DNA from: a virus
Virus record (IMG/VR): IMGVR_UViG_3300025759_000428
Span: 1 to 30,973 of that record
DNA length: 30,973 bases
Direction: 5' to 3' (one strand)
Part shown: in pieces, positions 8,207-30,973 of the stretch
How the letters are laid out: every line of letters begins with the position of its first letter
Numbering within the stretch: the first letter of the stretch is position 1
The notes under the pieces: model-generated
The model's input: the letters and a program-made list of their open reading frames with translations, nothing else
Database searches by the model: none
What the model was told of the DNA's origin: nothing
Translations under genes and position numbers: made by a program

Positions 8207-9640
8207 ATGGCAGCAGTAGTCCCGGTGTATAACGGAGCGGCAACAATAACTCCGGCACCAACAAAAACGGCCCTTGCAAGTAACTATATTGATTTCACAT
8301 CTGCTGGAACAAATAGTGCAAACTGGGCACAACAATATTTACCTGAGCTAATGGACAAAGAAGCTGAGGTATACGGCAACAGAACGATTTCTGGATTTTT
8401 AGCGCAAGTAGGTGCTGAAGAAGCTATGGAGTCTGATCAAGTAGTATGGTCAGAGCAAGGTAGACTTCACCTTACGCAGAAAGCAACAGCAGCAACTGTA
8501 CTAGCAACGTGTGTAATTGACTTTGGAGCGGCTCACCCGTTTAAAGTTAATGATACAGTTATGGTTCATGGTGTAGATGGTGGTAACGCACTTGGTATTG
8601 GAGCAACATTAAAATGTCTTGTTACAGCACTTCCAACTGCTAATAAAATTACAGCTATTCCTTATACTCAAGCAAATTTTACTGGTACTTTTCACGCGTC
8701 AACGCACTTACAAGTACTAAAGTATGGTACTGAGTTAGCGAAAGGTAAAACTTATGACCGTGATCCAATCACTCCTGGATTCAAAAGTCATACTAACAAG
8801 CCAATCATATTAAGAGACAAGTATGAGATCAATGGATCTGATACAGCTCAAATCGGTTGGGTTGAAGTATCTGGAGAAGAAGGACAGAGTGGTTACATGT
8901 GGTACATTAAGGCAGAAGCTGAAACAAGATCAAGATTTGCTGATTACTTAGAAATGGCAATGATTGAAGGTGAATTAGTTTCTGGAACACAATTAGACGG
9001 TTTAGCTGAACTTGGAACTGTTGGAGCTGGTGGAGCTGGTACTGAAGGTTTATTTGCAGCAATCAGAACTAGAGGTAATGTTTTAACTACAGGTATGACT
9101 GGAACAGCTTCAAACGACTTGTTAACTTTTGATGAGATTTTAAAGAAATTTGATGCTCAAGGAGCAATTGAAGAAAACATGCTTTTCTTAAATAGAGATT
9201 ACTCTTTAAAGTTTGACGATATGTTAGCTGCAGTTGGTGGAAACGCTGGATCTGGATTTGGTTTATTCAACAACTCAGAAGATATGGCATTAAACTTAGG
9301 TTTCACTGGATTTAGAAGAGGTTCTTATGACTTCTATAAGTCTGACTGGAAATACCTAAACGATGTTTCAACAAGAGGAACAATCAGTGATATCAGTGGG
9401 GTTATTATTCCTGCAGGTACTTCAAATGTTTACGACCAACAATTAGGTAGAAACATTAGAAGACCATTCTTACATGTACGTTATAGAGCTTCTCAAGCTG
9501 ATAACAGAAAAATGAAGACTTGGTTAACTGGATCTGTTGGAGCAACAACATCTGATCTTGACGCTATGGAAGTAAACTACTTATCTGAAAGATGTTTAGT
9601 TACTCAAGGAGCGATGAACTTTATGTTAATGGCTACTTAA
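8207..9640 (+). CDS. Major capsid protein
   Basis: This 477-residue protein follows the scaffold and precedes the only strong terminator in the window, the expected position of the most abundant late product. It opens with a small, Ala/Thr-rich N-terminus, then NWAQQYLPELMDKEAEVYGNRT, which is typical of capsid N-arms in marine Bacteroidetes phages. The middle has RDKYEINGSDTAQIGWVEV and the long helix KAEAETRSRFADYLEMAMIEG. A domain follows with LTFDEILKKFDAQGAIEENM, then QQLGRNIRRPFLHVRYRASQ and an ending NYLSERCLVTQGAMNFMLM. An HK97 fold is expected but cannot be proved by eye. The region of about residues 90-160 (HPFKVNDTVMVHGVDGGN) looks like a small inserted beta domain. Confidence 0.85.
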   Translation: MAAVVPVYNGAATITPAPTKTALASNYIDFTSAGTNSANWAQQYLPELMDKEAEVYGNRTISGFLAQVGAEEAMESDQVVWSEQGRLHLTQKATAATVLATCVIDFGAAHPFKVNDTVMVHGVDGGNALGIGATLKCLVTALPTANKITAIPYTQANFTGTFHASTHLQVLKYGTELAKGKTYDRDPITPGFKSHTNKPIILRDKYEINGSDTAQIGWVEVSGEEGQSGYMWYIKAEAETRSRFADYLEMAMIEGELVSGTQLDGLAELGTVGAGGAGTEGLFAAIRTRGNVLTTGMTGTASNDLLTFDEILKKFDAQGAIEENMLFLNRDYSLKFDDMLAAVGGNAGSGFGLFNNSEDMALNLGFTGFRRGSYDFYKSDWKYLNDVSTRGTISDISGVIIPAGTSNVYDQQLGRNIRRPFLHVRYRASQADNRKMKTWLTGSVGATTSDLDAMEVNYLSERCLVTQGAMNFMLMAT

Positions 9641-12474: not shown

Positions 12475-15400
12475 ATGGCGGATATCAAAAACACTTTCAC
12501 ATCAGGGAAAATGAATAAAGACCTTGATGAGAGATTAGTGCCAAATGGGCAATATATTGATGCAATGAACATAGATGTTGCGGCATCAACAACCGATAAC
12601 GTTGGGTCTGTTCATAATTCTTTTGGAAATACAAGAAAAGATTCTGCAAATATTGCTGGTGGTGTTTGTGTTGGTTCTGTTTTAGATAAAGAAACTCAAA
12701 CTATAATATGGTTTGTTTGTGGAACAACTTACGATGGTATAATACAATACGATCCAGTTACTCAAAAAAGTTTTCCTGTTTTAATATCTGCAAAAGAAGG
12801 TGTTGCAGGTGCTTTTTTAAATTTTGATTCAAGCCGTTTAATAACAGGTATAAATGTTATGGACGGCTTTTTGTATTGGACAGATAATTATTCTGAACCA
12901 AAAAAAGCTAACATTGAAAGGTGTAAGTCAGGCGTTGCATCATCTAATATTTGGACTACAATAACTAAGTTTATAAAAGAAGACGGTACTGAAGACGGTA
13001 ATATTTTAGAAAAACACTTAACTATAATAAAAAGATATCCTCTTGAAGCTCCAGGTATAGAATTATCAAAAACAAAAAGAACAGGAGAAGATTCATCTTC
13101 GCTTTCACAACAACCGCAAAATACTTCTTTTGTTGGAGGTGAATTTGGAGATGGTAGTTTAGACAAACTTTCTAATATATACACTAGAGGTTCTGGAGAT
13201 GTTGTTGTTTACAATCAAGACTTGACTTTTGATATAGGCGCTACAACAAACCAGTTTGCAAACACGATAACTATTGACACATCTGGTTTAAATGAAAGGC
13301 ACTGGCAATCTATTACAACAGACTGGTATTTTTTTACAAGTCAAAATAATAGATATGAAAAAGTTTCTGCAATAAACTACTCTGCTCACACGGTTTCTTG
13401 TGCTAACGGTATAGCTAACGGGGTGACAAATGCCGATACTATAACTTTTGTAAACTTTCACGAGGCTTATAACAACAACTCTTTTTGGACTTATAAAGAC
13501 TCTAGTGGTGACGTTAATATAAAACCAGTTGGTACTAGCGCTAAATGGACTAACGGTTTAAGAGACGCTGGTCTTTTAAATGATGGTACTGGTAGTGACA
13601 TAATTATAGATTCAAGTGCAGTTGGTGGAACGGGTTATGCAGCTGGAAGTTCTAGCAACGAGTTTACCTTAACAACTGGTGGTAGTGGTGCAATATCGTC
13701 TACTGGTAACATAATACCTGGTCTTATAGCTGGTCACATTTATAAAGTTGAAATAGTTGTTAGTAACTATAGCGGTAGTGGTTATGTAGGCTTAACAACT
13801 GACAATGTTGGTGCTAGTAGAACTCCTAGAACAAGTGCTAACGGAACCTTGTATTACACATTTAAGTGTAGAACTTCTGGAAACTTACAACTTCAAAAAG
13901 AAAGTACAGCTGCAGCTACATTAAAAGTTTCTGTTGTATGTTTATCAGGACCAAGAGAAGTTAAAATTCAAGAATTAATTTTTGACGGACAAGTTGATTA
14001 CAACGTTGGAGACGTGATAAAATTAACAAAAACATTGCAGCAAAACAGTTCTAACGAAGAAGATGAGGTTTCTGTAAGGGTTAAACTAACCGAAGAAAAT
14101 AAAGATGCTACTGGTATATCGGCACCTACAAGTCCTGGTGGGTCAAACCAAGATTATGGTGGAACAGGTTCAAACGGTTTTAGAAAAGTATTTAATTGTG
14201 AAATAATAAGCATAGACTCTGGAATAGCAAATTTAACACCTGCGGACGCATCAACCGGATGGGATTGTAAAAGAGAAAAAGATGATTCTTTATTTACAAA
14301 TATTTTTCCTAGATTTGGGTATAGATGGAAATATATGGATAATGAGTATTCTGCAATATCTCCATTTACAGAAGTAGCTTTTTTACCTATAGATAATGAG
14401 TACGAGTATGATTCTATTTCTGGCTACAACGTTACCATGGAAAATGACGTTAGATCTATTGTTTTAAAAGACTTTCAACAAATTCCAAATGACGTTATTG
14501 AGCTAGACATATTATATAAAGAATCTAACAACACTAATATATATACTATAAAAACCTTAAAAAAGCAAGAACTTGAAACTTTAACTAGTTACGAGGTTAC
14601 AACAGAGCTTTTGCAAGGCTTACTACCCTCTAATCAACTTTTAAGGCCTTATGACAACGTGCCTAGGAAAGCAAAAGCACAAGAAATAACTGGTAATAGA
14701 CTTTTATACGGAAACTACACGCAACAATACAACATAGAGCAAGATATAAATATCGACGCTGGTTTAATTTCCACCGTTGTAACTGACAACAAGCCAGTTA
14801 AATCTGCAAAATCTATACGAACTTACCAAGTGGGTGCTAGTTTATTAGATAAGTATGGTAGGCAAACTCCAGTTTTTTCAAGTGACAACGCTGTTGTTGA
14901 AGTAAAACCTGGCGATGCTAACAATGCTACATCTATTTCTGCAAAAATAAATTCAACAGCTCCTAGCTGGGCGACTCACTACAAGCTTTTTGTAAAAGAT
15001 AATTCTAGTGAGTATTACAATTTAGCTATGGATAGGTTTTATCAAGACGAATCAGACGATCACGTTTGGCTTTCTTTTTCATCTAATGACACAAACAAAA
15101 TTGACACTGATGATTTTATAATATTAAAAAAGAAACATGACTCAAAAGACCATTTAAACACTGCTCAATCAAATATAACGGCTAAATACAAAGTGTTAGC
15201 GAAAGAAAACTCCGCTCCAGCTTTTATAAGAAAAAGAAAAGTTAGCATAGGTAGGTCAGAAGATGGTTTAAACTTTGCCACAAACAATAGTGTTACCGAC
15301 GGTTATCCTCAAGAAGGTTTAGTGTTTTTTACAATTAGGGCGGCGAACATAGCTGCGTTTACACAAACTTTTGAAGAAGTTGCTGGTGTTCAGTTAATGG

Positions 15401-18400
15401 AGAATAAATATATAAAAATATGTAATTCTAGATCTGGAGCTACAACAGACTATTATCAAATAGAAAGTGTTGAGTGGAGTGTTACAGATTTAAAAGCAGG
15501 GGCTGTTTATTATACTTTTAGACTAAAAGAACCTTTTGGCAAGGATATATCACTTGTTGGTAATCCACCCGGTAGTTCAACAAGAGGTATATACGCTGAG
15601 TTTTTTGAAGAACAAGACAACAAAAATTTAATTGAATTTGAGGGTAGATTTTTTGTAAAAATATTAAGAGACGATATATTAAACGAAAATGTTTTAAAAG
15701 CTCAAAATAACGAAAACTATATTGTTGTTAATTCTCAACAAATGTATTGGGTTCATACATATGCTAGAGCAGCCGTTGGAACTTCCCCTGGGCCTTACAC
15801 ACCAGGCAACACTTTAGGTATGATTCAAGGTGGTGTTACTATTAATAGTAATGAGTTTAATTCAAATTATTTAAGAGATCCTAGCGTTTTTAGCTGGGTA
15901 ACACCGGTTAGCACTGACGATGACGGGTCAAAGTACGACACCAACAATGTTGTTACTAGTAATGCTGCCCAAAGGCTTTTAGCGGGTACAAAAGAACTTT
16001 CGGATTACTATTTAGGAACAAACGTTCAGGGTTGGGCTATAGACAGTGCTTGGTCATGGCACTTAACAAAAGATTTAAAGCTGCATGCTACTGGTAGTAA
16101 CTTAGCTAATGATGTTGAAAACAGGTATATGGGTCATGGTTTTATTCCTGGAGAAGATCATTGTGACTTTAGAGTATTTAATTTAGGCGAGGGTGCCGTT
16201 GCTAATCATTATAAAACTGAAAAAGGTTATAAATTCCCACCCCAAAACAAGGATATACAAAATTACGAGATTTTTAAAGCTTTAACAACACCTGGAACAA
16301 AGTTTAGGTGGAGTAATGATCCTGGGGAATATATAAACGGTGCTTGGAACGGTAAATCAACAATTTATACCGTTTTAGCGTCGGAAATTATAGACACAGC
16401 TAATGTAACAACTAAATTTAAAGCTGGCACGTCAAATTTTGATAAAGCAACAAACAAGGGTGTTAGAATACATTTAAAGTTAGATAAAAAAATTACATGG
16501 AGTCCAGCAGATCCAACCTCTGTAGATATTGACTCAAATTCTTCTAATATATTATTTTTAAATGGTACATCTTCTCGTAGACAATCATCTAACACTTCTA
16601 CGTTAGAAATATTACAATTAGATCCAACTGAAAATACGTTTTCAACAAAAGATCCAGCTGTTTTTGAAACAGAACCAAAAGAAAAAGTAGATTTAAATAT
16701 ATATTACGAAACACCTCAATCTGATTTAATAATTAGAGATGGCATGAGTATATCTACAACTTACATTGATCCTAACACAGGTGTAAGCGCTTTAACATCT
16801 AGTGCTACTGTTAGCAAGTACAAAACATGGAGCCCAAGTGCTTTTCAAGTTTCTCAAAACCATTTAACCTGCACTATACCCGCAGGGCAATCAATAACTA
16901 TATTTACAAAAGATGCCAATGGCAAAGTTGAATTTTCAAAAAGCTTTACACTGCCTAACGAAATAGCAAAGTTTCCAGGAGCAACTAAAACCAACGGCGT
17001 GTGGAATGGTGTAAGTGGTAATCCAGTTCAAATATTACAAATACCAGCAACACAACTTAAATGGCATAATTGCTATAGTTTTGGTAATGGTGTAGAGTCA
17101 AACAGAATTCACGACGACTTTAACGCGGTAACAATAGATAAAGGGCCTAAAGTTTCTGCTACGCTTGATGACAAATATATGGAGGAGATTAAAACAAATA
17201 GCTTAATATACTCTGGTCTTTACAATAAAAGCAGTAGTTTGAATAATTTAAATCAATTTATACAAGCTGAGAAAATAACTAAAGACTTAAATCCAGAGTA
17301 TGGAACAATACAAAAGTTGTTTACTAGAAACACTAATGTTGTTGTGTTTTGTGAAAATAAAATTTTAAAAGTTTTATCAAATAAAGATGCTTTATTTAAC
17401 GCCGACGGAAACCCAAACGTTATTGCTACAAATAAAGTTTTAGGACAAACAGTTCCGTTTTTAGGCGAATTTGGAATATCTAAAAACCCAGAATCTTTTG
17501 CTAACTACGGTTATAGAATTTATTTTAGTGATAAAGATAGAAACGCGGTTTTAAGATTATCTGAAGACGGTTTAACAGATATATCAAAAACTGGAATGGC
17601 TACTTATTTTAGAGATAATTTAAAGCCGTCAGATAAAATTATAGGAAGTTATGACGAAGATTCTAGAGTATACAATTTAACTTTAAATAATGAAACAGTA
17701 AGCTTTTCAGAAGATGTTAAAGGTTGGACTAGTAGAAAGTCTTTTGTTCCAGAAAGTGGGTTGTCAATGGACAGTGGTTATTATACTTTTAGAACTGGTA
17801 AACTATGGCTTCATGGATCTAATGAGTTGAGAAATAATTTTTACGCAGTTCAATATTCTCACGGTTCTAGCGTTAAGTTTGTGTTTAACCAATCGCCTTC
17901 TACTGTAAAAACTTTTAAAACATTAAGTTACGAAGGTACAGAAGGTTGGATTGCTGACTCTATAAAGACAGAATTACAATCAGGTAAAATACCTAGCTTT
18001 ACGGAAAAAGAAGGGCTATGGTTTAATTATATAAAAGGCGACGCTAACACAGAGGCTAATTTAGACGAAAAACAATTCACAACACAAGGGTTAGGCAGCG
18101 TTGATACTGTTAGTTTAGGTTCTTACCCTGTGTATCACGAGCTTGTCTCAACAGCTGGAATTAGTTCTTCTACTGAACTTAGGTATTTTGTTAACACTTC
18201 TACAAATACTAATAACAAAGAAAACGTAATAACAACAAACTACGAAAAAGATGAAACCTCATTTAGCAGTGTTGTTTTTTACGTTCATTCAAATATTGTA
18301 AACGGACAAAAGTGGGAAATAAACGCAGCTGGTACGACAGCTACTATTAGTTCTGTTGTTGGCTTGACTATAGGTACTCCGGTTTTAACAGAATCAGGTA

Positions 18401-18513
18401 GCGGTGCTGATAAGCATGTTATATGCACAATCCCTGTAAGTGGAACTATGCCTAATAACCCTGCGTCTTTTACTTTAACTATTTCAAGCACACCAATACT
18501 AATACAAAACTAA
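12475..18513 (+). CDS. Giant tail nozzle/DNA-stabilisation-type protein (2012 aa)
   Basis: The N-terminus TSGKMNKDLDERLVPNGQY followed by DAMNIDV is a block I know from tail 'stabilisation'/nozzle proteins of crAss-like and marine phages (functional counterparts of P22 gp10 and T7 gp12). Early blades show WFVCGTTYDGIIQYDP and FLYWTDNYSEPKKANIERC. The C-terminal third resumes the propeller-like pattern: KNLFTRNTNV-type strands (YGTIQKLFTRNTNVVVFCEN), FLGEFGISKNPESFANYG and YFSDKDRNAVLRLSEDGL (~1680). About residues 335-500 form a Ser/Gly/Thr-rich insert with a jelly-roll look, and ~1880-2012 a terminal beta sandwich. At 2012 residues it is far longer than T7 gp12 (about 800), because of such inserts. 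It should form the distal tail tube that closes and releases DNA. Confidence 0.7.
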   Translation: MADIKNTFTSGKMNKDLDERLVPNGQYIDAMNIDVAASTTDNVGSVHNSFGNTRKDSANIAGGVCVGSVLDKETQTIIWFVCGTTYDGIIQYDPVTQKSFPVLISAKEGVAGAFLNFDSSRLITGINVMDGFLYWTDNYSEPKKANIERCKSGVASSNIWTTITKFIKEDGTEDGNILEKHLTIIKRYPLEAPGIELSKTKRTGEDSSSLSQQPQNTSFVGGEFGDGSLDKLSNIYTRGSGDVVVYNQDLTFDIGATTNQFANTITIDTSGLNERHWQSITTDWYFFTSQNNRYEKVSAINYSAHTVSCANGIANGVTNADTITFVNFHEAYNNNSFWTYKDSSGDVNIKPVGTSAKWTNGLRDAGLLNDGTGSDIIIDSSAVGGTGYAAGSSSNEFTLTTGGSGAISSTGNIIPGLIAGHIYKVEIVVSNYSGSGYVGLTTDNVGASRTPRTSANGTLYYTFKCRTSGNLQLQKESTAAATLKVSVVCLSGPREVKIQELIFDGQVDYNVGDVIKLTKTLQQNSSNEEDEVSVRVKLTEENKDATGISAPTSPGGSNQDYGGTGSNGFRKVFNCEIISIDSGIANLTPADASTGWDCKREKDDSLFTNIFPRFGYRWKYMDNEYSAISPFTEVAFLPIDNEYEYDSISGYNVTMENDVRSIVLKDFQQIPNDVIELDILYKESNNTNIYTIKTLKKQELETLTSYEVTTELLQGLLPSNQLLRPYDNVPRKAKAQEITGNRLLYGNYTQQYNIEQDINIDAGLISTVVTDNKPVKSAKSIRTYQVGASLLDKYGRQTPVFSSDNAVVEVKPGDANNATSISAKINSTAPSWATHYKLFVKDNSSEYYNLAMDRFYQDESDDHVWLSFSSNDTNKIDTDDFIILKKKHDSKDHLNTAQSNITAKYKVLAKENSAPAFIRKRKVSIGRSEDGLNFATNNSVTDGYPQEGLVFFTIRAANIAAFTQTFEEVAGVQLMENKYIKICNSRSGATTDYYQIESVEWSVTDLKAGAVYYTFRLKEPFGKDISLVGNPPGSSTRGIYAEFFEEQDNKNLIEFEGRFFVKILRDDILNENVLKAQNNENYIVVNSQQMYWVHTYARAAVGTSPGPYTPGNTLGMIQGGVTINSNEFNSNYLRDPSVFSWVTPVSTDDDGSKYDTNNVVTSNAAQRLLAGTKELSDYYLGTNVQGWAIDSAWSWHLTKDLKLHATGSNLANDVENRYMGHGFIPGEDHCDFRVFNLGEGAVANHYKTEKGYKFPPQNKDIQNYEIFKALTTPGTKFRWSNDPGEYINGAWNGKSTIYTVLASEIIDTANVTTKFKAGTSNFDKATNKGVRIHLKLDKKITWSPADPTSVDIDSNSSNILFLNGTSSRRQSSNTSTLEILQLDPTENTFSTKDPAVFETEPKEKVDLNIYYETPQSDLIIRDGMSISTTYIDPNTGVSALTSSATVSKYKTWSPSAFQVSQNHLTCTIPAGQSITIFTKDANGKVEFSKSFTLPNEIAKFPGATKTNGVWNGVSGNPVQILQIPATQLKWHNCYSFGNGVESNRIHDDFNAVTIDKGPKVSATLDDKYMEEIKTNSLIYSGLYNKSSSLNNLNQFIQAEKITKDLNPEYGTIQKLFTRNTNVVVFCENKILKVLSNKDALFNADGNPNVIATNKVLGQTVPFLGEFGISKNPESFANYGYRIYFSDKDRNAVLRLSEDGLTDISKTGMATYFRDNLKPSDKIIGSYDEDSRVYNLTLNNETVSFSEDVKGWTSRKSFVPESGLSMDSGYYTFRTGKLWLHGSNELRNNFYAVQYSHGSSVKFVFNQSPSTVKTFKTLSYEGTEGWIADSIKTELQSGKIPSFTEKEGLWFNYIKGDANTEANLDEKQFTTQGLGSVDTVSLGSYPVYHELVSTAGISSSTELRYFVNTSTNTNNKENVITTNYEKDETSFSSVVFYVHSNIVNGQKWEINAAGTTATISSVVGLTIGTPVLTESGSGADKHVICTIPVSGTMPNNPASFTLTISSTPILIQN

Positions 18514-20605: not shown

Positions 20606-21289
20606 ATGAGTGATTCAATTTTTGATAAATTAAGCAAGAGTCTCGGTTTAGAGGATATGAAAAAAACAGAAAAGCTAGGGCTTATTGAAGGTGTGGCTGG
20701 TATAACCACTGGTTTAATAGGTAGAAGAGCTAGAAGAGAAGACCAGTTAAAAGCCGATAGATTATATAAAGAAAGAATGGAAAACTATTCTAACATGGAC
20801 ACTAGTAATTTAGCAGCTGGCTTTCAAAATACCTTTACGGAAAACGTATATGAAGATATTACTGTTAACACACAGCAAGCAGATTTTATGGCACAACAAC
20901 AACAACAAAACCAAGCCAACATTATGCAAAGCTTAAGTGGAGCTGCTGGTGGTTCTGGTATTGCTGGTTTAGCACAAGCGTTGGCAAATCAATCGACTAT
21001 TGCAAATCAAAAAGCCTCTGCGTTAATAGGTGCTCAAGAGCAAAAAAATCAACTTTTAATTGGTAAAGGTGAACTAGCCGTTCAAAAAGGAGAAATGATG
21101 GCACAGCAAATACAATATAAAGGAGCCGAAATGGCAAGAAAAATGGAAACTGACAAAGAAGCTACTTTGCTTGGAATGTCTCAAATGGAAAAAGCAGCCG
21201 CAGACAAAGCTGTGGCAGATGCAAATTCCGCGTTGTATGGGGGTATTGGTAAAGTAGTTGGTTCAATAGTAACTGGAAAAATAACATAA
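20606..21289 (+). CDS. T7 gp14-like internal virion (ejection) protein (227 aa)
   Basis: The protein has a glycine-rich hydrophobic N-terminal stretch (LGLIEGVAGITTGLIGRRAR, ~23-42), a Gln-rich middle (a run of five Q near residue 95) and a Gly/Ala-rich block (SGAAGGSGIAGLAQALANQ). A long amphipathic helix with many Met, Gln and Lys follows, and the chain ends in another small hydrophobic segment, GGIGKVVGSIVTGKIT. T7 gp14 (196 residues) has the same order of features and forms the outer-membrane part of the DNA ejection channel. The gene is also first of three, followed by a mid-size and a giant protein, exactly as gp14-gp15-gp16. The similarity is architectural, not sequence-level. The ATG at 20606 follows a 40-base A/T-rich gap with no Shine-Dalgarno. 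Confidence 0.6.
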   Translation: MSDSIFDKLSKSLGLEDMKKTEKLGLIEGVAGITTGLIGRRARREDQLKADRLYKERMENYSNMDTSNLAAGFQNTFTENVYEDITVNTQQADFMAQQQQQNQANIMQSLSGAAGGSGIAGLAQALANQSTIANQKASALIGAQEQKNQLLIGKGELAVQKGEMMAQQIQYKGAEMARKMETDKEATLLGMSQMEKAAADKAVADANSALYGGIGKVVGSIVTGKIT

Positions 21290-21291
21290 AC

Positions 21292-22833
21292 ATGGCGGCA
21301 GATAAAAATTTAATACAAGGGCAGTTAACAATGCTTGAGGCGGGTAGAGACACTTCTGTTTCTTCTTTTTTTGGCGAACTAACTAGTCAAATGAAAAAAA
21401 TTCAAGAAGAAACCCAAAAAGAAGGGGCTAAAATAGACGCTTGGCTAAGTAAAATTGGTACGCCAGAAAACGTGGTAAAAATAGAACCCGGTTATAGACC
21501 TATTATAGATAAGTGGGTAAAAGAAAAACAGGCTGAATTTATTAGCATATCAGAACAGTATGAAGAAAGTCAAGACCCAGAGGACAGGCAAAAATTAGAG
21601 AATATACAACTTGAGTTTGCTACATTAAATGACCAGTTAGGTAGGTTAGCGCTAGATAAAAAAGCTTATGCAAAGGCTGGTGGTCAACAAATGTTAAAAT
21701 TAGGTGTTTTAGGTAGCGAGTGGTATGTTGGTAATTACGCTAAAGATGATGACAGCACGGGTGATGTTGAAGGAACTTTTAGTGTTGAAAGCTCAGGTAA
21801 AATATTTTTTGGCAACGATTCTTTTGATAGTAGAGAAGGTAAGTGGAACGTGAAAAACGTAACATCAACTAATAATATAAAAACAAGGGTGTCAAACGCA
21901 CAAAAACAAGCTCTTAATGATGGTAGAACTGGTGATAAAAACTTTATATGGGACAATGCTTATAACGCTTATAAAAAAGACTTTGACCTTACGGGCGCTG
22001 AGGGAATTATGGTTTTAGCACAAACTGATTTAGTAGAAACAGATAACAACCCAATGACTTTTGCTGACCAATGGAACCAAGGTGGTTTAGATGAATCGTT
22101 TTACACTGAGTTTCCAAAAAACGGTGGTAACGACTGGATGCAAAAACCAGAAAATTCTGATAAACTATCAGCAATGATGGCTAAGTACTTGTCTAATGCA
22201 GAAGAAGATATATACAACAATACTTGGCAAGGAAGTTTTGACAAAGAATCTAACATATCGTTCTTAGATAGACCTAACAAAGGGCTTTATGTTGGTGCTA
22301 CGCAAAGCACTGTTCCTAGGGACCAAGGTGTTTACTTGCTTGAAAGTTTAAAAGAAGGTACTGGTGATTTTGTGTTTATGGGTAGGCGAGTTACTTATGA
22401 TCCTATAAACGACGTATATACAACTCAATATGGCGATGAAGCGCTTAGAACTTACAATGGCGTTGAAGAGTTTGTTAGCAAAATGGGTATTACTGACCCT
22501 GCATTTAAAAATTTAGTTGTAAAAGGAAGAAAAAAGCCAAGTAACAACAACGATGATGATGATGGTGGTGGTGGTGATGAAAAACCTCCTAAACCAAAAG
22601 GAATTGATAGAAATTACTTTAAAGGTCCTATGACGCCAGAAAGAGTATTAGAAATTGAAAAACTATATCCTGGTTTAAAAATGACCAAGGGAAAAGGTGA
22701 CAACTATATTCTTACTTTTAACGGTAAAAATCCGGTTAAAATTGTAACAAACAGAACTGATAATTTTACAGGACAAAGATCTTTAAAGTCTAAAAATAAA
22801 TTTGACAATTATATAAATAAATATATAAAATAA
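21292..22833 (+). CDS. Mid-size internal virion protein (gp15 position), unknown fold (513 aa)
   Basis: It starts 2 bases after the gene before and ends 1 base before the giant gene. The N-terminal ~110 residues are helical and charged (FFGELTSQMKKIQEETQKEG, ISEQYEESQDPEDRQKLENI). The middle (~135-400) is mixed, with EWYVGNYAKDDDSTGDVEG, KNFIWDNAYNAYKKDFDLTG and YLLESLKEGTGDFVFMGRRV. Near residue 420 a low-complexity hinge of consecutive Asp then Gly residues links to a C-terminal basic domain that has MTPERVLEIEKLYPGLKMTK and LTFNGKNPVKIVTN. No catalytic motif is recognised. The place between a gp14-like and a gp16-sized protein makes a periplasmic tunnel or core-stack role plausible; this is inference from context. 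Confidence 0.5.
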   Translation: MAADKNLIQGQLTMLEAGRDTSVSSFFGELTSQMKKIQEETQKEGAKIDAWLSKIGTPENVVKIEPGYRPIIDKWVKEKQAEFISISEQYEESQDPEDRQKLENIQLEFATLNDQLGRLALDKKAYAKAGGQQMLKLGVLGSEWYVGNYAKDDDSTGDVEGTFSVESSGKIFFGNDSFDSREGKWNVKNVTSTNNIKTRVSNAQKQALNDGRTGDKNFIWDNAYNAYKKDFDLTGAEGIMVLAQTDLVETDNNPMTFADQWNQGGLDESFYTEFPKNGGNDWMQKPENSDKLSAMMAKYLSNAEEDIYNNTWQGSFDKESNISFLDRPNKGLYVGATQSTVPRDQGVYLLESLKEGTGDFVFMGRRVTYDPINDVYTTQYGDEALRTYNGVEEFVSKMGITDPAFKNLVVKGRKKPSNNNDDDDGGGGDEKPPKPKGIDRNYFKGPMTPERVLEIEKLYPGLKMTKGKGDNYILTFNGKNPVKIVTNRTDNFTGQRSLKSKNKFDNYINKYIK

Positions 22834-22834
22834 T

Positions 22835-25800
22835 ATGCCAAGGTACGTACACGCTAACGGTTTTGAGTACAAAAAAGAGGATTTAGAAAAATACGCTGAA
22901 GCCGACGGGTTGTCTTTAGACGATTATATGAGTCAAAACAATATTAGTGTTGACGAGTCTGACGATATTTCTATAATTGAAGGTTTAAAAAACGAAATAT
23001 TAAACACTAAAGGTGAGGCCGCTAAAATAGGTTATGATATATGGACTGCTGCAGCTGAAGGTTTTATAAAACCTGTTTTAGGAGAAGAAGCAGCTTTGTT
23101 TTTTTTAGGCGGTGATGTTAGTGATAAAACTGGCTGGGTAGACCCTGATAACGGGCAAATAGTAGCGTTTGACAAAGCCGCTTATGACAGAGACGGTTAC
23201 GATGCTGTTGAAAATAGAAGGTACTACGAGCTGGCTAAAGAAAACCAAAAATACGGTGTTAGTATACAACAAGTAAACGTTGAAACAGGAGAAGACATTG
23301 GTGTTGCTTACGCTAAAATGCTACAGCAAAGATTTAACGAAGGTAAAGAAATTGAAGAAAGCAGAAGACAAACTGTAGATGTTGGTAGCGAAGGATTTTT
23401 AAACGCTGTGAAATCAGGAGAGTTTGATGATGCTCTTGTTGCTGGTATAGGTTTTATAAAACAGACCGCTATGCACGCTATTGCCGCTAGACTTACGCTT
23501 GGTGGTAGTATGGCTGCAACAATGATAGGTAGTTCTTGGGTCGCTTATAACGAGCAAAAAGCAAAAGCTATTTACGGTGATGATCCAGATGGTTTTTCTA
23601 AACTAGTTGAAAATGACCAAGATGAGTCCGCAATACCAGCTGCTTTAGGAGCTATTGGATATGTTATGGAAAGAGCTGGTTACAAAGGCATGATGAAGGA
23701 ATTAGCTAAAAAATCTTTTACCGGTAAAAAAGCTGTTTCTCTTCTTATGACAGGTAATAAAGAGGGTGTAACAGAATACGGACAAGGCTTGACAGAAAGA
23801 CTTAACGAAAACTTAGGTAAACAAATGAGTTTAGAAGAGTCTGTTAAAGATGTTGGTAGCTACATGTGGACTGAAGAAGCTTGGGACAATTATTTTGCAG
23901 GACTTATTGGTGGTACAGGTATGACTGGTGGTGGAAAAATTGTGCAAGGAGCTTTAAGATCCGACCCTACAAGCAATCAGTTCGTAAACAAAAAAATAAA
24001 CAACATAGCCGGTCTTACAGAAAGCATGGCTAAAGCAACTTCTGAAAAGGAGTTAAAAGATATTCAAGATCAAATTCAAATAGAAGAAACAGATCTTAAA
24101 GATTATTTAGAATCTAATAAAAAGCTTAGTGAATATTTAAATGAAGGTGAAATTACAAGTTTAACTGATCTTGTAAATGAAAGAAGAAACACAAGCGCTG
24201 AAATAGTAAGCTTAAAAAAAGGTTTAAACAAAGGAGCCATATCACAAGCTAGTTTTGACATTCAAGTTAAAGATTTGTTTGAAAGTTTAAACAATATAGA
24301 TGCTAAGGTAAAAAATATTAAAGTTGATGCTAACATGCGTTTGTTAAAAGCTGATTTAGATTCTGGAGATGTTTTTGTAGGTGATGTAAAAGGTTTAGAA
24401 CAAGTTAGATACGAAACTAACGAAGAGTTTTTAAAAGCTTTAGAAAAAGAATATAAACTTCAAGGCATTAAAATGCCTGACATGAAAAAAGTAAGAATTA
24501 ACGGTACAAAAATTGGTAATAAGTTACTAATAAATATGGAAGTTGCTGCAGAGCAAAATGCAGTAGCCACAAGCACGCACGAAGTATTGCACGGTATTGT
24601 TAAGTCTACTTTACAAGCTGATGACGCTAGTGGTAATCTAAGCGCTAAAGGAGAAAACATGGTTAAAATGTTTATTAACCAAATAGGTAGTAGCACTTTA
24701 GCTAAAATAGAAAAAGAACTTGAAAAAGGTGGTTACAAATTAAACGATGACGGCACTGAAAAAGATTTTAAAGAATATGGTGAAGAGTATTTAACTATAT
24801 ATGCACAGCTTTCAAAAGCTGGGGCGTTAAACAAAAATTCTTTACAAAAAGCGGCTAGTTGGTTTACAAACCTTTGGAATAACAATAGTGATTTTAAAGA
24901 AATAGGGTTTGAAACAGGTGAGCAAATACAAAACTTTTTAGATGCTTATGTTCAAGATACTAAGAAAGGTAAGTTCAGACAAGAGTTTAAAGACTTAGCA
25001 GCTTTAGGTGTTAAAATGAAAGGTGGTAAAGTAGATTTTTCTAAAACACAAAAAGACGTTGCAAAGAAAACATTAGACGATATAGGTAAAGCAGAAAACT
25101 TTGATGCTTCTAACAAAGAAATAACAAACCAACTTCCTGCTATGGTAAAAGTACAGGTTGATAACTACTTTAATAATAGACCATCTTTAAAAGCTGATAA
25201 ATCAGTTAGAGAAGAAGTACAAGCTGAAATTTTGTTTAGATTAATAAACCCATCAAAAACAGGTAGAACTGATATAAACGGTTTTAAACCTAAAATAAAT
25301 GATTCTTTATATGGTTATTTAAATAAAAGAATTAACTATAGGATGTTAGATACTTTTAAAGAAAACCCTACTATAGTTCCTGATTTTACAAAAGTAGATC
25401 TTGAAGATGCTGCAAAATTTTTAACAACAGAAGACGCTACTACTACTAAAAAAACAGAAGGTGTAAAAACAAAATTAGTTCAAACAAAAGCTAGACAACT
25501 TACAAGTTTAGCTGATTTAGATATAGAAAACGAAACCGTAATTGTTGATGGTGCTAAAACCACTATATTAAAAGAAGTTGCTAAAAAGCAATTAAATAAA
25601 ATAATTGAAGAAAGTCCTGCAAACACTGTAGAGCAAATAGAACAAACATTAATACCTGATTTAGCAGAATTTATAAGAAAAGAAATGGGTGTTATAGGGC
25701 AAAAAGACGGTAAGTTAAACATACCTGAATCCTACAAGGCTTATTTAGCAAATACTTACGAACAAACAGTCTCTAGTATGGAAATACTTAAAATAAGAAC

Positions 25801-28800
25801 TAATTATAAGAACTTATTTAAAAGAGAAAATATGGGGTTTGCAGATTATAAAACTAAAAAATCTGACAAGCCTAGCCTTAAAAAAGATAGTAACTATAGA
25901 AAAGAAATTTTTAGAAACATAACTACAAAAGCTGAGTTTACAAAGTATCATACAGAAGGAAAAAAGAATAAATTAATAGCTAATCAAAGAAATTTAGCTT
26001 TAATGAGGGCTGAAGCCGAGGCTGTTAGAGCTGCTGAAAATTATATACAAAATAACTCCACAAATCCAGGGCAGCTTTTTAGCTCGTCACTTAGAACTTT
26101 TGTTGATAGCAAAACTGTAGAAAAACAAAAACTTGAAGACAAGAGCTTTGACAGCGTTAAATATTCTAAGGAAATTATTAACACTACTTTTTTAATTTCA
26201 GACGCGTATATGTCTAATAAAAATGTTTTTGATAATAACGGTAAGCTATTACCTCCATACAATGGTTTTTTAAAAGATAAAAAAACTATGCAAAGTATTG
26301 GTGATTTTGTTTGGGCAAACACACCTTTGCTTCAAGGGTACCAAAGTTTTAATCAATTTATAAAACGCGCTTATGATAAACTTGCTGACGCTGGTCAAAG
26401 AGGCACTGATTATGAAAGAAATTTAATTGATGCGGCTATAACTGTTGAAAAAACAATTAACGACCCAAAAATATTTAAAGTTATAAGCAGGGAACCTAAC
26501 GAAAAAGACGCTAATCCAGATGTGGTAGTAGAAATACACGGTGTTCAAATGAACATTGAGGCTAAAATGTTTGATGCTCAATACGGTAGTTTTACACATA
26601 GTGTTGTAAATAAAGATGGAAAACAAATTTTTAATGTTAAAAAAGAATATTCGCCAGAACTAAAGAAAATTTTAAAAGAATTAGAAAAAGAGACTTTAAA
26701 AGGTATTGAAGCTGCTAGAAAGTTTTTGAAATCACCAAAAGATAACAACGGTAATAACAAGCAAGTCATTGAGTGGGACGGTATAAAAATAATACCAACA
26801 GAGGGACATAACCAGCTTCTTTATAATATTAATCCTGAAACTGGAAAAAGTTATTTTAGAGGTATAGGAGCTACAATACCATTTCCTTTAAAATATATTG
26901 CAGAGCTTTATAATCTTAAAAAACACGAGGTGTATTTAATACAGTTAATGGGCAGAGGGCTGTTTAGCATGGGTGGTGATATTTACGGTTTTGGTTTAAC
27001 ATCGTTAGAAAGCGGTGGTGATGGTTTTGTGACTATGCGAGTTAGTTCTAACACTTATAAAACTGCAGCAACGGAAGCTGACGCTAAAAACATGCCAAAT
27101 AAAAGTATGTTTAAAAACGGTAAAAATGGTAAAAAATGGAAAGTACCAAGACCGTTTAAAAAATACGCTTTTAGATCTTTTCCAGGCATAAACAAGCAGG
27201 TATTAGACAAGATGCAATCGCCACAAACAGTTGAAAACATTGCTGGAATACAGAAAATAATTAACGACAAGCGTGTTCAAATGGGATTAGAAGCTATTAA
27301 GTTTTCTAAAACTTTGGTTGAAAAAGCTAATGAATCTGAAGGGTTATACAACGCTATTAATTTTTCAAGAACAATACACAAGCCAAAGGGCATAACTGTT
27401 TTAGATTTTGATGATACGCTGGCTACGACTAAATCTTTAGTTAAATACACAACTCCAGACGGTAAGACAGGCACTTTAAACGCTGAACAATACGCGAGCA
27501 CTTATGAAAGTTTATTAGACAAAGGCTATGAATTTGATTTTTCTGACTTTAATAAAGTTGTAAAAGGTAAATTAGCGCCGTTGTTTAACAAAGCTATAAA
27601 ACTTCAAGGTAAGTTTGGGCCAGAAAATATGTTTGTATTAACAGCTAGGCCACCAGAATCCGCTCAAGCTATATTTGACTTTTTAAAGGCCAATGGTTTA
27701 AATATACCTTTAAAAAATATAACTGGATTAGCTAATTCTACATCTGAAGCAAAAGCATTATGGATAGCTGGTAAAGTTGGCGAGGGTTATAATGATTTTT
27801 ATTTTGCTGATGATGCGTTGCAAAACGTACAAGCGGTTAAAAACATGTTAGATCAATTTGATGTTAAATCAAAAGTGCAACAAGCTAAAGTTAAGTTTAG
27901 CAAAACACTAAGTGATGATTTTAATGACATATTACAAGATGTAACTGGTATAGAGTCTGGAAAAAGGTTTAGCACTATGAAAGCTAGAAAGCGTGGCGCT
28001 AGCAAAGGTAAGTTTAGATTTTTTATACCACCGTCACACGAGGACTTTATAGGCTTATTATACAACTTTATGGGTAAAGGTAGAAAAGGAGACGTTCATA
28101 GAGATTTTTTTGAAAAAGCTTTAGTTAGACCTTTAAATAGGGCTTATAGAGAAATAGACACTGCCAAACAAGCTATTGCAAACGATTACAAAGCGCTAGG
28201 TAAACAAATGCCTGACGTTAGAAAAATGTTAACTAAAAAAACACCTGACGGAGATTATACGTATCAAGATGCTATAAGAGTATACTTATGGGACAAACAC
28301 GGTTATTCAATACCAGGTTTAAGCGAGGCTGATCAAAAAAGTTTAGTTGATATAGTAAAGCAAGACCCTAACTTACAGGCTTACGCTGAAAGTATAAACG
28401 CTATATCTAAACAAGAAAACTATGTAGACCCAGGTCCTAACTGGGAAACTGGTAATATAAGAATAGACTTAATAGATGCAACTGGTAGAGTTGGTAGAGC
28501 TAAGTACTTTGCAGAGTTTCAGGAAAACGCTGACACAATATTTAGTGAAGAAAATTTAAATAAAATTGAGGCCGCTTACGGTAAAAGCGTTAGAGAAGCT
28601 TTAGAAGACATGTTGTATCGAATAAAAATTGGTGTTAACAGGTCTAAAGGAGCTAACGCAAAACCAAATATGTTTATGAATTGGTTGAACGCTTCTGTTT
28701 CAGGTGTAATGTTTTTTAACACTAGATCTGCATTGCTACAGCAAATGTCAAACGTAAACTATTTAAATTTTGCTGACAACAATATACTTGCTGCTGGTAA

Positions 28801-29992
28801 AGCTTTCGCCAACCAACCGCAATACTGGAAAGACTTTGCGATGATATTTAACTCTGATATGCTAAAGCAAAGGCGTGGTGGTTTACAAACAGACATTAAT
28901 GGTGCTGAGCTTGCTGAAGCTATCAAAAGCGCTAGACCAGGAAGCTTATTTGATCAAATAGCTATAATTGTTGGTAAAGCTCTTAAATTAGGATTTTTAC
29001 CTACTCAAATTGGTGATAACATTGCGATCGCTACAGGTGGCGCTGCTTTTTATAGAAACAGAGTTAATAAATATATTAGAGAAGGTTTTCCTGTAGACCA
29101 AGCTGAAAAAAAAGCTTTTACTGATTTTCAAAACATCACACAATCAACTCAGCAGTCTGCTAGACCAGACATGACTTCTTACCAGCAAGCTATATGGGTA
29201 GGAAAATTAGTGTTAAACTTTTTAAACACGCCATCGCAATATAACAGAATAATTAAAAAAGCAGGTCTTGATCTTTTAAACAGAAGAATAACACCACCTA
29301 ACACCACGCAAACACAGAGCGATATGTCTAACATGTCTAGAATATTGTACTACGGCGCTGCACAAAACTTAATATTTTACAGTCTACAAACCGCGTTATT
29401 TGCAGTAATGTTTGGAAGCGAAGACGAAGACGAAGATGAAAAAGCTGAGCAGTTTTTAAAGAAAAAAGAAAGAGTTATAAACGGAACAATAGACACTATA
29501 CTAAGAGGTTCTGGTATATACGGAGTTGCAGTTTCTACTTTAAAAAACATGGCTATTAAGTTTATGGAACAAAGAGAAGCTGGTTACAACAAAGACGAAA
29601 GCGCTGTTATTATGGAGCTATTAAACTTTTCACCTGTTGTGGGTATTAAAGCTAGAAGAATTGTTAACGCAGAAAAAACTTTAAATTATAATAAAAAAGT
29701 AATTGAAGAAATGGAAACGTTTGACATAGACAACCCTGTGTGGTCTGCTGTTACAAATTATACCCAAACTATTACTACAGCACCAACAAATAAAATTTAC
29801 CAAAAAACAATAAATCTTAGAAACGCTGCTGATAGAGATTATACAGCTTTACAAAGATTGTTGTTTTTATCTGGTTATACTACTTGGAGTTTAGGTCTTG
29901 GTGATACTAAAAAAATGAAAAAAATAAAAGAAGAAGTAAAAGCTAAAAACAAAAAGAAAAGAAAAAGAAAATCTAAGTCTGTAGGTTTTTAA
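22835..29992 (+). CDS. Giant polyvalent internal virion protein: zincin, PD-(D/E)XK nuclease, HAD phosphatase
   Basis: At 2385 residues this is the largest gene and sits in the gp16 position. Layout: residues 1-400 with an N-terminal YVHANGFEYKKEDLEKYA block and glycine-rich hydrophobic segments (~205-240, ~350-370); ~400-720 a helical part plus a zincin with H582-E-V-L-H586-G and possible third ligand E647/E650/E651; ~740-1100 a helical region including GYLNKRINYRMLDTFKEN; ~1115-1480 a PD-(D/E)XK nuclease (E1194, P1228-D1229, E1242-A-K1244); ~1515-1685 a HAD domain (D1524-F-D1526-D-T, T1603, K1640, D1659-D1660); ~1690-2385 a helical module with SVSGVMFFNTRSALLQQM, FLPTQIGDNIAIATGGAAFY, a membrane-like segment (~2172-2196) and a Lys/Arg-rich end. 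The peptide [VI]x[FY]S[KR][TE] recurs at the domain junctions. 'Large polyvalent proteins' of phages (Iyer, Aravind and colleagues) are the nearest described concept. No transglycosylase motif is seen. Confidence 0.75.
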   Translation: MPRYVHANGFEYKKEDLEKYAEADGLSLDDYMSQNNISVDESDDISIIEGLKNEILNTKGEAAKIGYDIWTAAAEGFIKPVLGEEAALFFLGGDVSDKTGWVDPDNGQIVAFDKAAYDRDGYDAVENRRYYELAKENQKYGVSIQQVNVETGEDIGVAYAKMLQQRFNEGKEIEESRRQTVDVGSEGFLNAVKSGEFDDALVAGIGFIKQTAMHAIAARLTLGGSMAATMIGSSWVAYNEQKAKAIYGDDPDGFSKLVENDQDESAIPAALGAIGYVMERAGYKGMMKELAKKSFTGKKAVSLLMTGNKEGVTEYGQGLTERLNENLGKQMSLEESVKDVGSYMWTEEAWDNYFAGLIGGTGMTGGGKIVQGALRSDPTSNQFVNKKINNIAGLTESMAKATSEKELKDIQDQIQIEETDLKDYLESNKKLSEYLNEGEITSLTDLVNERRNTSAEIVSLKKGLNKGAISQASFDIQVKDLFESLNNIDAKVKNIKVDANMRLLKADLDSGDVFVGDVKGLEQVRYETNEEFLKALEKEYKLQGIKMPDMKKVRINGTKIGNKLLINMEVAAEQNAVATSTHEVLHGIVKSTLQADDASGNLSAKGENMVKMFINQIGSSTLAKIEKELEKGGYKLNDDGTEKDFKEYGEEYLTIYAQLSKAGALNKNSLQKAASWFTNLWNNNSDFKEIGFETGEQIQNFLDAYVQDTKKGKFRQEFKDLAALGVKMKGGKVDFSKTQKDVAKKTLDDIGKAENFDASNKEITNQLPAMVKVQVDNYFNNRPSLKADKSVREEVQAEILFRLINPSKTGRTDINGFKPKINDSLYGYLNKRINYRMLDTFKENPTIVPDFTKVDLEDAAKFLTTEDATTTKKTEGVKTKLVQTKARQLTSLADLDIENETVIVDGAKTTILKEVAKKQLNKIIEESPANTVEQIEQTLIPDLAEFIRKEMGVIGQKDGKLNIPESYKAYLANTYEQTVSSMEILKIRTNYKNLFKRENMGFADYKTKKSDKPSLKKDSNYRKEIFRNITTKAEFTKYHTEGKKNKLIANQRNLALMRAEAEAVRAAENYIQNNSTNPGQLFSSSLRTFVDSKTVEKQKLEDKSFDSVKYSKEIINTTFLISDAYMSNKNVFDNNGKLLPPYNGFLKDKKTMQSIGDFVWANTPLLQGYQSFNQFIKRAYDKLADAGQRGTDYERNLIDAAITVEKTINDPKIFKVISREPNEKDANPDVVVEIHGVQMNIEAKMFDAQYGSFTHSVVNKDGKQIFNVKKEYSPELKKILKELEKETLKGIEAARKFLKSPKDNNGNNKQVIEWDGIKIIPTEGHNQLLYNINPETGKSYFRGIGATIPFPLKYIAELYNLKKHEVYLIQLMGRGLFSMGGDIYGFGLTSLESGGDGFVTMRVSSNTYKTAATEADAKNMPNKSMFKNGKNGKKWKVPRPFKKYAFRSFPGINKQVLDKMQSPQTVENIAGIQKIINDKRVQMGLEAIKFSKTLVEKANESEGLYNAINFSRTIHKPKGITVLDFDDTLATTKSLVKYTTPDGKTGTLNAEQYASTYESLLDKGYEFDFSDFNKVVKGKLAPLFNKAIKLQGKFGPENMFVLTARPPESAQAIFDFLKANGLNIPLKNITGLANSTSEAKALWIAGKVGEGYNDFYFADDALQNVQAVKNMLDQFDVKSKVQQAKVKFSKTLSDDFNDILQDVTGIESGKRFSTMKARKRGASKGKFRFFIPPSHEDFIGLLYNFMGKGRKGDVHRDFFEKALVRPLNRAYREIDTAKQAIANDYKALGKQMPDVRKMLTKKTPDGDYTYQDAIRVYLWDKHGYSIPGLSEADQKSLVDIVKQDPNLQAYAESINAISKQENYVDPGPNWETGNIRIDLIDATGRVGRAKYFAEFQENADTIFSEENLNKIEAAYGKSVREALEDMLYRIKIGVNRSKGANAKPNMFMNWLNASVSGVMFFNTRSALLQQMSNVNYLNFADNNILAAGKAFANQPQYWKDFAMIFNSDMLKQRRGGLQTDINGAELAEAIKSARPGSLFDQIAIIVGKALKLGFLPTQIGDNIAIATGGAAFYRNRVNKYIREGFPVDQAEKKAFTDFQNITQSTQQSARPDMTSYQQAIWVGKLVLNFLNTPSQYNRIIKKAGLDLLNRRITPPNTTQTQSDMSNMSRILYYGAAQNLIFYSLQTALFAVMFGSEDEDEDEKAEQFLKKKERVINGTIDTILRGSGIYGVAVSTLKNMAIKFMEQREAGYNKDESAVIMELLNFSPVVGIKARRIVNAEKTLNYNKKVIEEMETFDIDNPVWSAVTNYTQTITTAPTNKIYQKTINLRNAADRDYTALQRLLFLSGYTTWSLGLGDTKKMKKIKEEVKAKNKKKRKRKSKSVGF

Positions 29993-30541
29993 ATGAAAAA
30001 GTTGTTAATACTTTTTTTTATGTTTTCGTGTTCAAAAGAAGTTGATGATCTTGGCTTTAGAATTTATACAATACCCGCGGGTGAGCATAGTTCAGGTAGT
30101 TTTTTAAACCACCCAGATAACTCTAGAATAAGTTTTCAATTTATATTAGATGAATCAGCTATATATACTAGTGAAATACCAGAAAACCAACACGACGTAA
30201 ACAAAATATACGGCATGAGTGATTTTGGTTTGCGTCATCAAAAATACTCTATAAGACTTGGTTGGAGGTATATAAACAACGAGTTACAACTTTGCTGGTT
30301 ACGCCATGAAGAAGGTAGGCATAGTTCTGCTACAATAAGAACTATAGAGCCAGATGTAATTTATGACGCTACAATTGATATAAAAACGTTTTATTATGTA
30401 ATAGTAATAGATAACGATACTACGCTTGTGCGTAGAAGACCTGAGGGTAATTGGGGTTTGCTACGTAGATATTATCTATATCCCTATTTCGGTGGTAATG
30501 AATATGCACCGCATGATATAACAATTAAAATAAAAGAATGA
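29993..30541 (+). CDS. Bacteroidetes-type lipoprotein, beta-sandwich, possible surface protein (182 aa)
   Basis: The ATG directly abuts the stop codon of the giant gene. MKKLLILFFMFSC is a short lipoprotein signal peptide with the acylated cysteine at C13; the residues before it (M-F-S) are a relaxed lipobox. It is followed by SKEVDD, close to the acidic lipoprotein export signal (Lys plus Asp/Glu pairs after Cys) known for surface lipoproteins of Bacteroidetes. The mature part is beta-rich: YTIPAGEHSSGSF, ISFQFILDESAIYTSEIPEN, DVNKIYGMSDFG, YSIRLGWRYINNELQL and YYLYPYFGGNEYAPHDITIK. I recall this SAIYTS...PEN...YPYFGG..APHDI pattern from Bacteroidetes proteins of unknown function. Possible roles are superinfection exclusion or envelope alteration (inference); a spanin is less likely given the size and fold. 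Confidence 0.65.
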   Translation: MKKLLILFFMFSCSKEVDDLGFRIYTIPAGEHSSGSFLNHPDNSRISFQFILDESAIYTSEIPENQHDVNKIYGMSDFGLRHQKYSIRLGWRYINNELQLCWLRHEEGRHSSATIRTIEPDVIYDATIDIKTFYYVIVIDNDTTLVRRRPEGNWGLLRRYYLYPYFGGNEYAPHDITIKIKE

Positions 30542-30973
30542 AAAAACTAATTATAATAATGTGTATAGCATTGGCAGCTTGCGCAGCGCCAAAAAAATGT
30601 TGTTCACAAAACTTTAAGAAAATATTTAAGTTCTCCACGTTTTACGCAGCTGCAAATGGTGGTACATCTATATCAGATGTAGAAACATTTTCAGTTACAA
30701 ACGGGCTAGAAACAGCTACAATACAAACACCTTATGATTACAACTTAGCGTTAGGTATACGTAAAATAGCTAGGTTTGGTTATGAAAACAGAGCACAAAC
30801 ATTTTACGACGGTACTGAAAACTCGTGGTCAGATGGTGCTAACGTAGGTAAAGTAAAAGGATTAGAATTTTTATTTGAAATAGATTATAAAAGACAACAA
30901 GGTAATGAATATTTAGATCAGCATCACTTTATAAGATTTGTTGACAACAAATATATACTTAAGGGTGAGTATT
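30538..30973 (+). CDS. Second lipoprotein, conserved phage family (3' end cut by window)
   Basis: ATG 30538 overlaps the preceding TGA (ATGA), so the two lipoprotein genes are translationally coupled. At least 145 residues are visible and the frame is still open at the window end. MKKLIIIMCIALAAC is a signal peptide with a canonical lipobox, L-A-A-C, giving acylated C15. The following APKKCC lacks acidic residues, unlike the neighbouring lipoprotein, and has two more cysteines. The mature part opens with FKFSTFYAAANGGTSISDVE, then TPYDYNLALGIRKIARFGYE and NRAQTFYDGTENSWSDG, then GLEFLFEIDYKRQQGNEYLD. This last sequence with QHHFIRFVDNKYILKGEY looks like alternating outer-membrane-type strands. 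I recall the family from marine phage genomes without a known role. Confidence 0.6.
   Translation, partial: MKKLIIIMCIALAACAAPKKCCSQNFKKIFKFSTFYAAANGGTSISDVETFSVTNGLETATIQTPYDYNLALGIRKIARFGYENRAQTFYDGTENSWSDGANVGKVKGLEFLFEIDYKRQQGNEYLDQHHFIRFVDNKYILKGEY

Follow-up and report, generated by a model that had tools for sequence, protein, structure and literature searches.

Introduction

Injected polyvalent proteins of phages are known mainly from domain catalogues, and experimental cases are few. As described by Iyer et al. (2017; PMC5512222), they are injected multidomain proteins with zincins and probably process themselves; their metallopeptidases have three strands, one N-terminal helix, and two C-terminal helices, with HExxH on the first and a Glu residue on the second. 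In crAss001, giant virion proteins are ejected as cargo and act before phage transcription (PMC10172136). Here, we compare with these systems a giant protein encoded in an IMG/VR viral record of 30,973 bases, the whole of which is called the window below. The coordinates of the protein, its domains, and its virion neighbours are on the plus strand of the window.

Results

Gene, genome context, and protein family

Positions 22835–29992 form a single uninterrupted frame encoding 2385 amino acids, which confirms that the one long chain read here by a first-pass annotation of the sequence is real. The gene is the last large one of the virion module, and the window genes run on one strand in the order terminase (large subunit, TerL; 2326–4539), portal (4542–6959), major capsid protein (MCP; 8207–9640), other head proteins, hub, smaller virion genes, and giant gene. 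Since related records reach 60–70 kb, the window is probably about half a genome. As judged by terminase, portal, and capsid proteins, the nearest named phages are an uncultured Manatee Spring podovirus, Flavobacterium phages of the genus Elemovirus, Maribacter phage Panino, and Cellulophaga phages of Pervagoviridae and Pachyviridae. Upstream of the terminase gene, a 198-aa ORF (1504–2100) is homologous to proteins of elemoA and Calle phages that bear the annotation GroES/Cpn10 co-chaperonin.

The whole 2385-aa protein gave no significant match in Pfam and PHROG and, by tblastn, none at E 0.01 in 50,697 phage records. Scanning IMG/VR with the C-terminal alignment revealed at least 561 related encoding stretches, of which 80 were retrieved for comparison; the giant protein is single copy in 21 of 21 records. 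The family consists of giant proteins of podovirus-type phages related to Cellulophaga, Flavobacterium, and Maribacter phages. Its layout is constant in the 83 relatives with a complete front and both motifs, HExxH and DxDxT: the HExxH motif lies 195–1657 residues from the N-terminus, DxDxT follows after a median of 974 residues (interquartile 933–1041), and the C-terminal module (~700 residues) after a further median of 168. Among the GTDB contigs with the giant protein (L112–L118) are members of bins labelled Woesearchaeota, Aliivibrio, and Maricaulis MAGs, which are probably misbinned phage contigs; one Cryomorphaceae MAG (L117) agrees with the expected host group. A weak SidC_C match (E 3e-4) was seen in the giant protein of one member of alignment A1.

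Zincin and variable N-terminal part

Two multidomain AF2 models of the window protein were available, both of moderate confidence (mean pLDDT 70). Residues 1–519 (22835–24391) are variable and mostly helical in the model; residues 1–200 are common only to the window protein and one relative (L002), and residues ~200–560 to about ten relatives. The following segment, residues ~520–725 (24392–25009), contains HEVLH at 582–586 and a third ligand, E651. In a 37-sequence alignment, H582, E583, H586, and E651 are the sole invariant residues over 1–1117. An alignment of the zincin alone, with 44 sequences and a mean column identity of 24%, leaves no invariant residues besides H, E, H, E, and one F; over the alignments of 37–44 divergent relatives, mean column identity is 16–24%. 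The model places a strand at 522–526, a helix at 529–542, strands at 557–560 and 563–567, HExxH on helix 579–593, and E651 on helix 645–661, a topology equal to that described for polyvalent-protein metallopeptidases.

The zincin alignment had no meaningful match among PDB profiles, and Foldseek of the first multidomain model gave no PDB match below E 0.001, the matches being helical noise. Among the matches listed by VIA-align, which were filled by long-helix matches, there was no zincin chain. Profile and fold searches having given none, the zincin is assigned by the invariance of its motif and by topology. The HExxH zincin proposed in the first-pass annotation stands, with H/E/H/E invariant in 37–44 divergent relatives and a predicted secondary structure equal to the zincin core, and a metallopeptidase is well supported by alignment and model.

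Middle region and candidate nuclease

Residues ~934–1117 (25634–26185) constitute an alpha/beta domain common to the window protein and 12 relatives, with AF2 strands at 996–1007 and 1019–1029. A candidate PD-(D/E)XK nuclease follows at residues ~1118–1490 (26186–27304), with the motif residues E1194, P1228-D1229, and E1242-x-K1244. These are invariant in the four available homologues only (alignment A7; 25–82% identity to the window sequence). In the model, E1194 is on helix 1172–1208, P1228-D1229 at the start of strand 1230–1234, and E1242-x-K1244 on strand 1237–1244, which is followed by helix 1274–1299. Neither comparison of the nuclease alignment with PDB profiles nor Foldseek of the model yielded a confirming match, and no PD-(D/E)XK chain was among the matches listed by VIA-align. 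Hence, of the earlier nuclease claim, the motif set and the helix-strand-strand-strand-helix arrangement hold, but a fold or profile match does not accompany them; a PD-(D/E)XK nuclease is plausible from motif and model, and it is a lineage-specific piece rather than a family feature. In many relatives lacking the PD-(D/E)XK region, an 'EHxxP' motif and further residues are conserved ~120 aa ahead of the HAD domain (A5, A6), and another domain may replace the nuclease there.

HAD phosphatase and C-terminal module

Residues ~1515–1690 (27377–27904) contain the motifs of a HAD phosphatase (D1524/D1526/T1528, T of LTAR, basic residues, and D1659-D1660), each of which shows little or no variation in an alignment of 46 relatives (A10). 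The modelled Rossmannoid fold aligns with dozens of HAD structures in VIA-align, the top two being T4 polynucleotide kinase/phosphatase (1ltq, Z 11.5, 131 residues, 2.8 Å; 2ia5, Z 11.0). The HAD alignment had no meaningful match among PDB profiles; HAD enzymes led the Foldseek matches of the second multidomain model, none below E 0.001 in PDB. Motifs and predicted fold thus bear out the complete HAD domain of the first-pass annotation, and the assignment is well supported. Structure prediction had been proposed there as a check on the enzyme domains: the HAD fold was recovered, but the models gave no zincin or PD-(D/E)XK fold among the matches listed.

In five relatives (L018, L084, L101, L113, and L118), a P-loop kinase (Pfam AAA_33/Zeta toxin) is inserted right after DxDxT, at the HAD cap site (L018:2109-2306 aa, with Pfam E about 1e-12; L084:2466-2663 aa; L101:2225-2421 aa); L022 has a kinase immediately preceding its C-terminal module. 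The Pfam scan found no kinase in the window protein. The pairing of kinase and phosphatase recalls PNKP, and the insert could equally be a zeta-like kinase; as modelled, the PNKP-like HAD would point towards healing of nucleic-acid ends. As far as our searches of open-access papers show, a PNKP-like HAD with cap-site insertions is new. In the giant protein of L020, an insert in the HAD region (residues ~2219–2321) carries an ART-PolyVal-like motif (YHGG...FAYFSQD...A..YA; Pfam ART-PolyVal E 0.18).

The conserved C-terminal module, residues ~1691–2385 (27905–29989), is all-helical in the model and 40–86% identical across the family. Its basic tail, with 15 K/R versus 3 D/E in the final 40 residues, agrees with the first reading; the hydrophobic or membrane-like character also ascribed to the protein is not supported by hydropathy, the best 19-residue Kyte-Doolittle mean (1.35) being below the usual cut-off of 1.6. 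Beyond close relatives, Foldseek of the C-terminal model against BFVD matched giant phage proteins with E from 1e-12. Several matches were named 'large polyvalent protein associated domain', 'ART-PolyVal-like', or 'PolyVal ADP-ribosyltransferase' (E 1e-7 to 1e-4, TM-scores ~0.3 of the query); the similarity to polyvalent proteins is a remote structural one because these TM-scores are low.

Sigma-70 region-2-like domain

Residues ~766–850 (25130–25384), which the earlier account had passed over, resemble region 2 of sigma-70 factors in profile and structural comparisons, and the domain containing them occurs in ~54 relatives. When profile A8 was compared with PDB, sigma factors of RNA polymerase (RNAP) accounted for 14 of the 18 matches (best E 0.0012), in register with region 2; with profile A13, they were 11 of the 13, including the top 11, again in register. 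With the more homogeneous subset A14, one of five PDB matches was a sigma factor. Moreover, hhalign of the domain against a primary-sigma profile, made from fetched genomes plus E. coli RpoD and RpoS, gave a probability of 94.7% (reported range 90–95%), as against 0.1% for its reversed controls and 0.0–0.6% over all controls, in which the sigma profiles were reversed or the domain was replaced by others of the giant protein. Model residues 746–844 align to E. coli sigma-70 6psr_L (Z 6.5, 74 residues, 2.2 Å), and the model also aligns to E. coli sigma-70 8to8_L (Z 6.0, 92 residues, 3.4 Å). Among the matches listed, sigma-70 chains were the only ones confined to 746–844, with Z values that are modest for a helical domain. 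The sigma-like stretch is degenerate in the window protein itself, and a low-power test found no sigma region 4 in the ~330 residues that follow it.

A separate full sigma factor of ~246–255 aa, with Sigma70_r2 and an HTH region, is present in 8 of 19 related records (L142–L149, from G018, G022, G013, G024, G017, G015, G021, and G014); no such gene was found in the cultured relatives tested. Copying of the sigma-like domain from the phages' own sigma gene was considered and rejected, the similarity being weaker than that to primary sigma factors. None of the 19 related records contained a multisubunit RNA polymerase, for which the control was positive in 14 of 14. With their own sigma factor in 8 of 19 and a multisubunit polymerase in 0 of 19, a natural target would therefore be the host RNA polymerase. 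The domain seems to point at least as much to this enzyme as to the counter-defence that had been proposed for the protein. A sigma-2-like domain in a probable virion protein appears to be new, as no such case was found in our searches of open-access papers.

Conserved back and exchanged front

In relatives whose TerL is mostly 86–93% and portal 59–85% identical to those of the window, the HAD domain and C-terminal module share ~75–86% protein identity and 73–84% nucleotide identity, the latter over a block at 27345–29976 detected by blastn. In most relatives tested, nucleotide similarity starts at 27,345–27,386 and ends near 29,976. A sharp boundary, which the first-pass annotation did not contain, separates the exchanged front from the conserved back at residues ~1490–1515; the front was covered to less than 30% in 23 of 41 pairs with 80–90% C-terminal identity. 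Conservation of MCP is intermediate (55–64%), and the variation of the tail hub and of the gp15-like protein is roughly that of the giant's front. Because the back tracks terminase and portal while the fronts are often unalignable, the last ~870 residues appear to evolve as core virion machinery does, and the first ~1500 as expected of cargo specific to the host. Horizontal spread of the C-terminal block alone among unrelated phages was rejected, as terminase and portal show the phages to be close relatives; the front is therefore the varying part. As far as could be found in our searches of open-access papers, such a sharp boundary is new. The conserved block may not end with the giant gene, since the next gene (30538–30972) is likewise 69–87% identical in nucleotides to that of most relatives tested.

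The fronts of a handful of 72 relatives (A4–A6) contain SLT, glycoside hydrolase 108, phage lysozyme, or peptidoglycan-binding domains. Cell-wall hydrolases at this place are expected, because ejected proteins must cross the cell wall.

Virion neighbours and packaging

The record of Cellulophaga phage phi18:3 carries the note 'experimental MS/MS proteomics' for portal, MCP, hub gp114, gp120, gp121, and gp123 (1935 aa), and in its order TerL-portal-MCP-hub-gp120-gp121-gp123 the window giant sits at the gp123 position. The 2012-aa virion structural protein of the window (12475–18513; phrog_14478, 4.9e-134) is a homologue of gp114, and the 227-aa neighbour at the T7-gp14 position (20606–21289) is homologous to gp120 (iterated HMM, 2.7e-40); gp114 and gp120 are both among the phi18:3 proteins detected by MS/MS. 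The 513-aa neighbour at the T7-gp15 position (21292–22833), which is fast-evolving, lies where phi18:3 has the likewise detected gp121. The link between gp123 and the window giant is positional only, because no similarity in zincin, HAD, or C-terminal module is detectable between them. In Flavobacterium phage elemoA, the giant encoded at this position (gp21, 3694 aa) has a zincin homologous to that of the window protein (E 2.7e-11), with HEIFH at 1543. The C-terminal module showed no similarity to the giants of phi18:3, phi38:1, elemoA, MW202828, and Panino. The positional giant of Maribacter phage Panino (L028:13229-18718), deposited as 'tRNA methyltransferase', is unlike the window protein.

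From the synteny with the MS/MS-detected phi18:3 proteins, together with the one homologous neighbour, we infer on good grounds that the 2385-aa protein is packaged in the virion; its ejection is likely. The 'T7 gp16 position' assigned to it earlier agrees with the gene order, but no sequence relationship to T7 gp14, gp15, or gp16 is detectable (hhalign probability ≤0.4% against the single sequences, a low-power test).

Discussion

Taken together, these data are best explained, in our judgement with reasonable though by no means full confidence, by a polyvalent protein that is packaged in the virion and ejected, and whose gene takes the internal-virion-protein position in a podovirus of the flavobacteriophage type. 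The fixed HAD domain and helical C-terminal module would then probably serve packaging, portal exit, and/or as a DNA-entry conduit, and the first ~1500 residues would be exchangeable, host-specific cargo delivered at entry, ahead of or with the DNA. Presumably, the zincin would cut the polypeptide into separate effectors, or it would cleave host proteins. The sigma-region-2-like domain would dock on the beta-prime clamp helices of host RNA polymerase, recruiting the enzyme or displacing the host sigma factor; the PNKP-like HAD would dephosphorylate nucleotides or the ends of nucleic acids, and the nuclease would attack host or rival nucleic acid.

A mainly structural role would account for part of the same data. 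The C-terminal module and the helical front could form a trans-envelope channel like that of T7 gp15/gp16, with the domains serving DNA entry only, by cell-wall cutting or self-cleavage. The T7-like gene order, the cell-wall hydrolases in the fronts of relatives, the 227-aa neighbour homologous to a virion protein, and the basic, helical C-terminus are all compatible with such a conduit, as is the variation of the front, which resembles that of the tail hub as expected of contacts with the host envelope. It is not obvious, however, what use a conduit would make of a sigma-2-like domain, of inserted P-loop kinases, or of a PNKP-like HAD that is invariant, and we regard a pure conduit as unlikely. 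Far less probable still is an early-made, self-cleaving polyprotein absent from the virion. Processing by the built-in protease is plausible, and the idea has been raised for polyvalent proteins (PMC5512222); however, the giant gene follows virion genes on the same strand after a one-base gap, its positional equivalent is found in phi18:3 virions, and its C-terminal module equals terminase and portal in conservation.

A further alternative concerns the sigma-2-like segment, which may be a convergent three-helix arrangement that does not bind RNA polymerase, so that the protein would be an enzyme package without a role in transcription. The weak signal of the most homogeneous subset (A14), Z values within the chance range for helical bundles (6.0–6.5), and the lack of conservation of the residues of the -10 recognition helix are in line with convergence; against it stand the predominance of sigma factors, in register, among the PDB profile matches of A8 and A13, the hhalign probabilities of 90–95% as opposed to at most 0.6% in reversed or unrelated controls, and the confinement of the sigma-70 chains, alone among the structural matches listed, to this stretch. 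We consider convergence a somewhat improbable, but serious, possibility. The specific proposal that a virion-delivered sigma-2-like domain, released by the zincin, engages host RNA polymerase at genome entry, by recruitment or by displacement of host sigma, is itself tentative and rather doubtful. If it is true, a sigma-type takeover from the virion replaces the virion RNA polymerase and is carried on an exchangeable front, as opposed to the fixed HAD and packaging module.

With the packaged polyvalent protein as the preferred reading, a very abundant marine phage group offers a set of orthologues that are conserved like terminase in one part and exchanged in the rest; cargo and packaging roles are therefore separable by sequence and can be tested singly. 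The sigma-2-like domain provides a direct test of whether a virion-borne sigma piece can seize host RNA polymerase. The PNKP-like HAD, sometimes with a cap kinase, suggests that an early target is the repair of nucleic-acid ends or signalling by nucleotides.

Comparison with known systems

The 'polyvalent protein' label of the first-pass annotation is upheld by the disparate catalytic domains, the zincin hub, the polyvalent-like C-terminal structure, and the cell-wall hydrolases of relatives. As in the proteins of PMC5512222, several unrelated catalytic domains occur in one phage polypeptide, which is encoded with virion genes and has a zincin hub with HExxH plus E, and the C-terminal module has a remote structural similarity to viral proteins annotated as LPD/ART-PolyVal. 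The window protein differs in that no Pfam polyvalent domain was detected in it and in having a HAD and a sigma-region-2-like domain; PMC5512222 nowhere uses the words 'sigma' or 'phosphatase', and, as far as that paper could be checked, this module order is undescribed there. Like phi18:3 gp123, phi38:1 gp101, and elemoA gp21, the window protein is encoded by the last giant gene of a homologous virion module; it resembles gp123, itself detected in virions, by position only and has the zincin in common with gp21, whereas these three proteins contain no detectable C-terminal module, HAD, or sigma-like domain.

With T7 gp14-gp15-gp16, the locus shares the small-medium-giant gene order and the internal-virion position. 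T7 gp16 has an endolysin domain, to which the SLT or lysozyme domains in the fronts of a few relatives correspond, but the window protein has no transglycosylase match in Pfam. T4 Pnkp is the top structural match for the HAD phosphatase fold, and five relatives add a P-loop kinase; in contrast to Pnkp, in which the kinase is N-terminal, the kinase of these relatives is at the HAD cap site, and the window protein has none. PF00940 had no match in the related records, nor did its control match anywhere. The virion RNA polymerases and cargo of N4 and crAss-like phages are likewise giant ejected proteins, which the window protein would resemble if it is ejected as we suppose; unlike them, it has no RNA polymerase domain in Pfam and carries a sigma-like piece instead.
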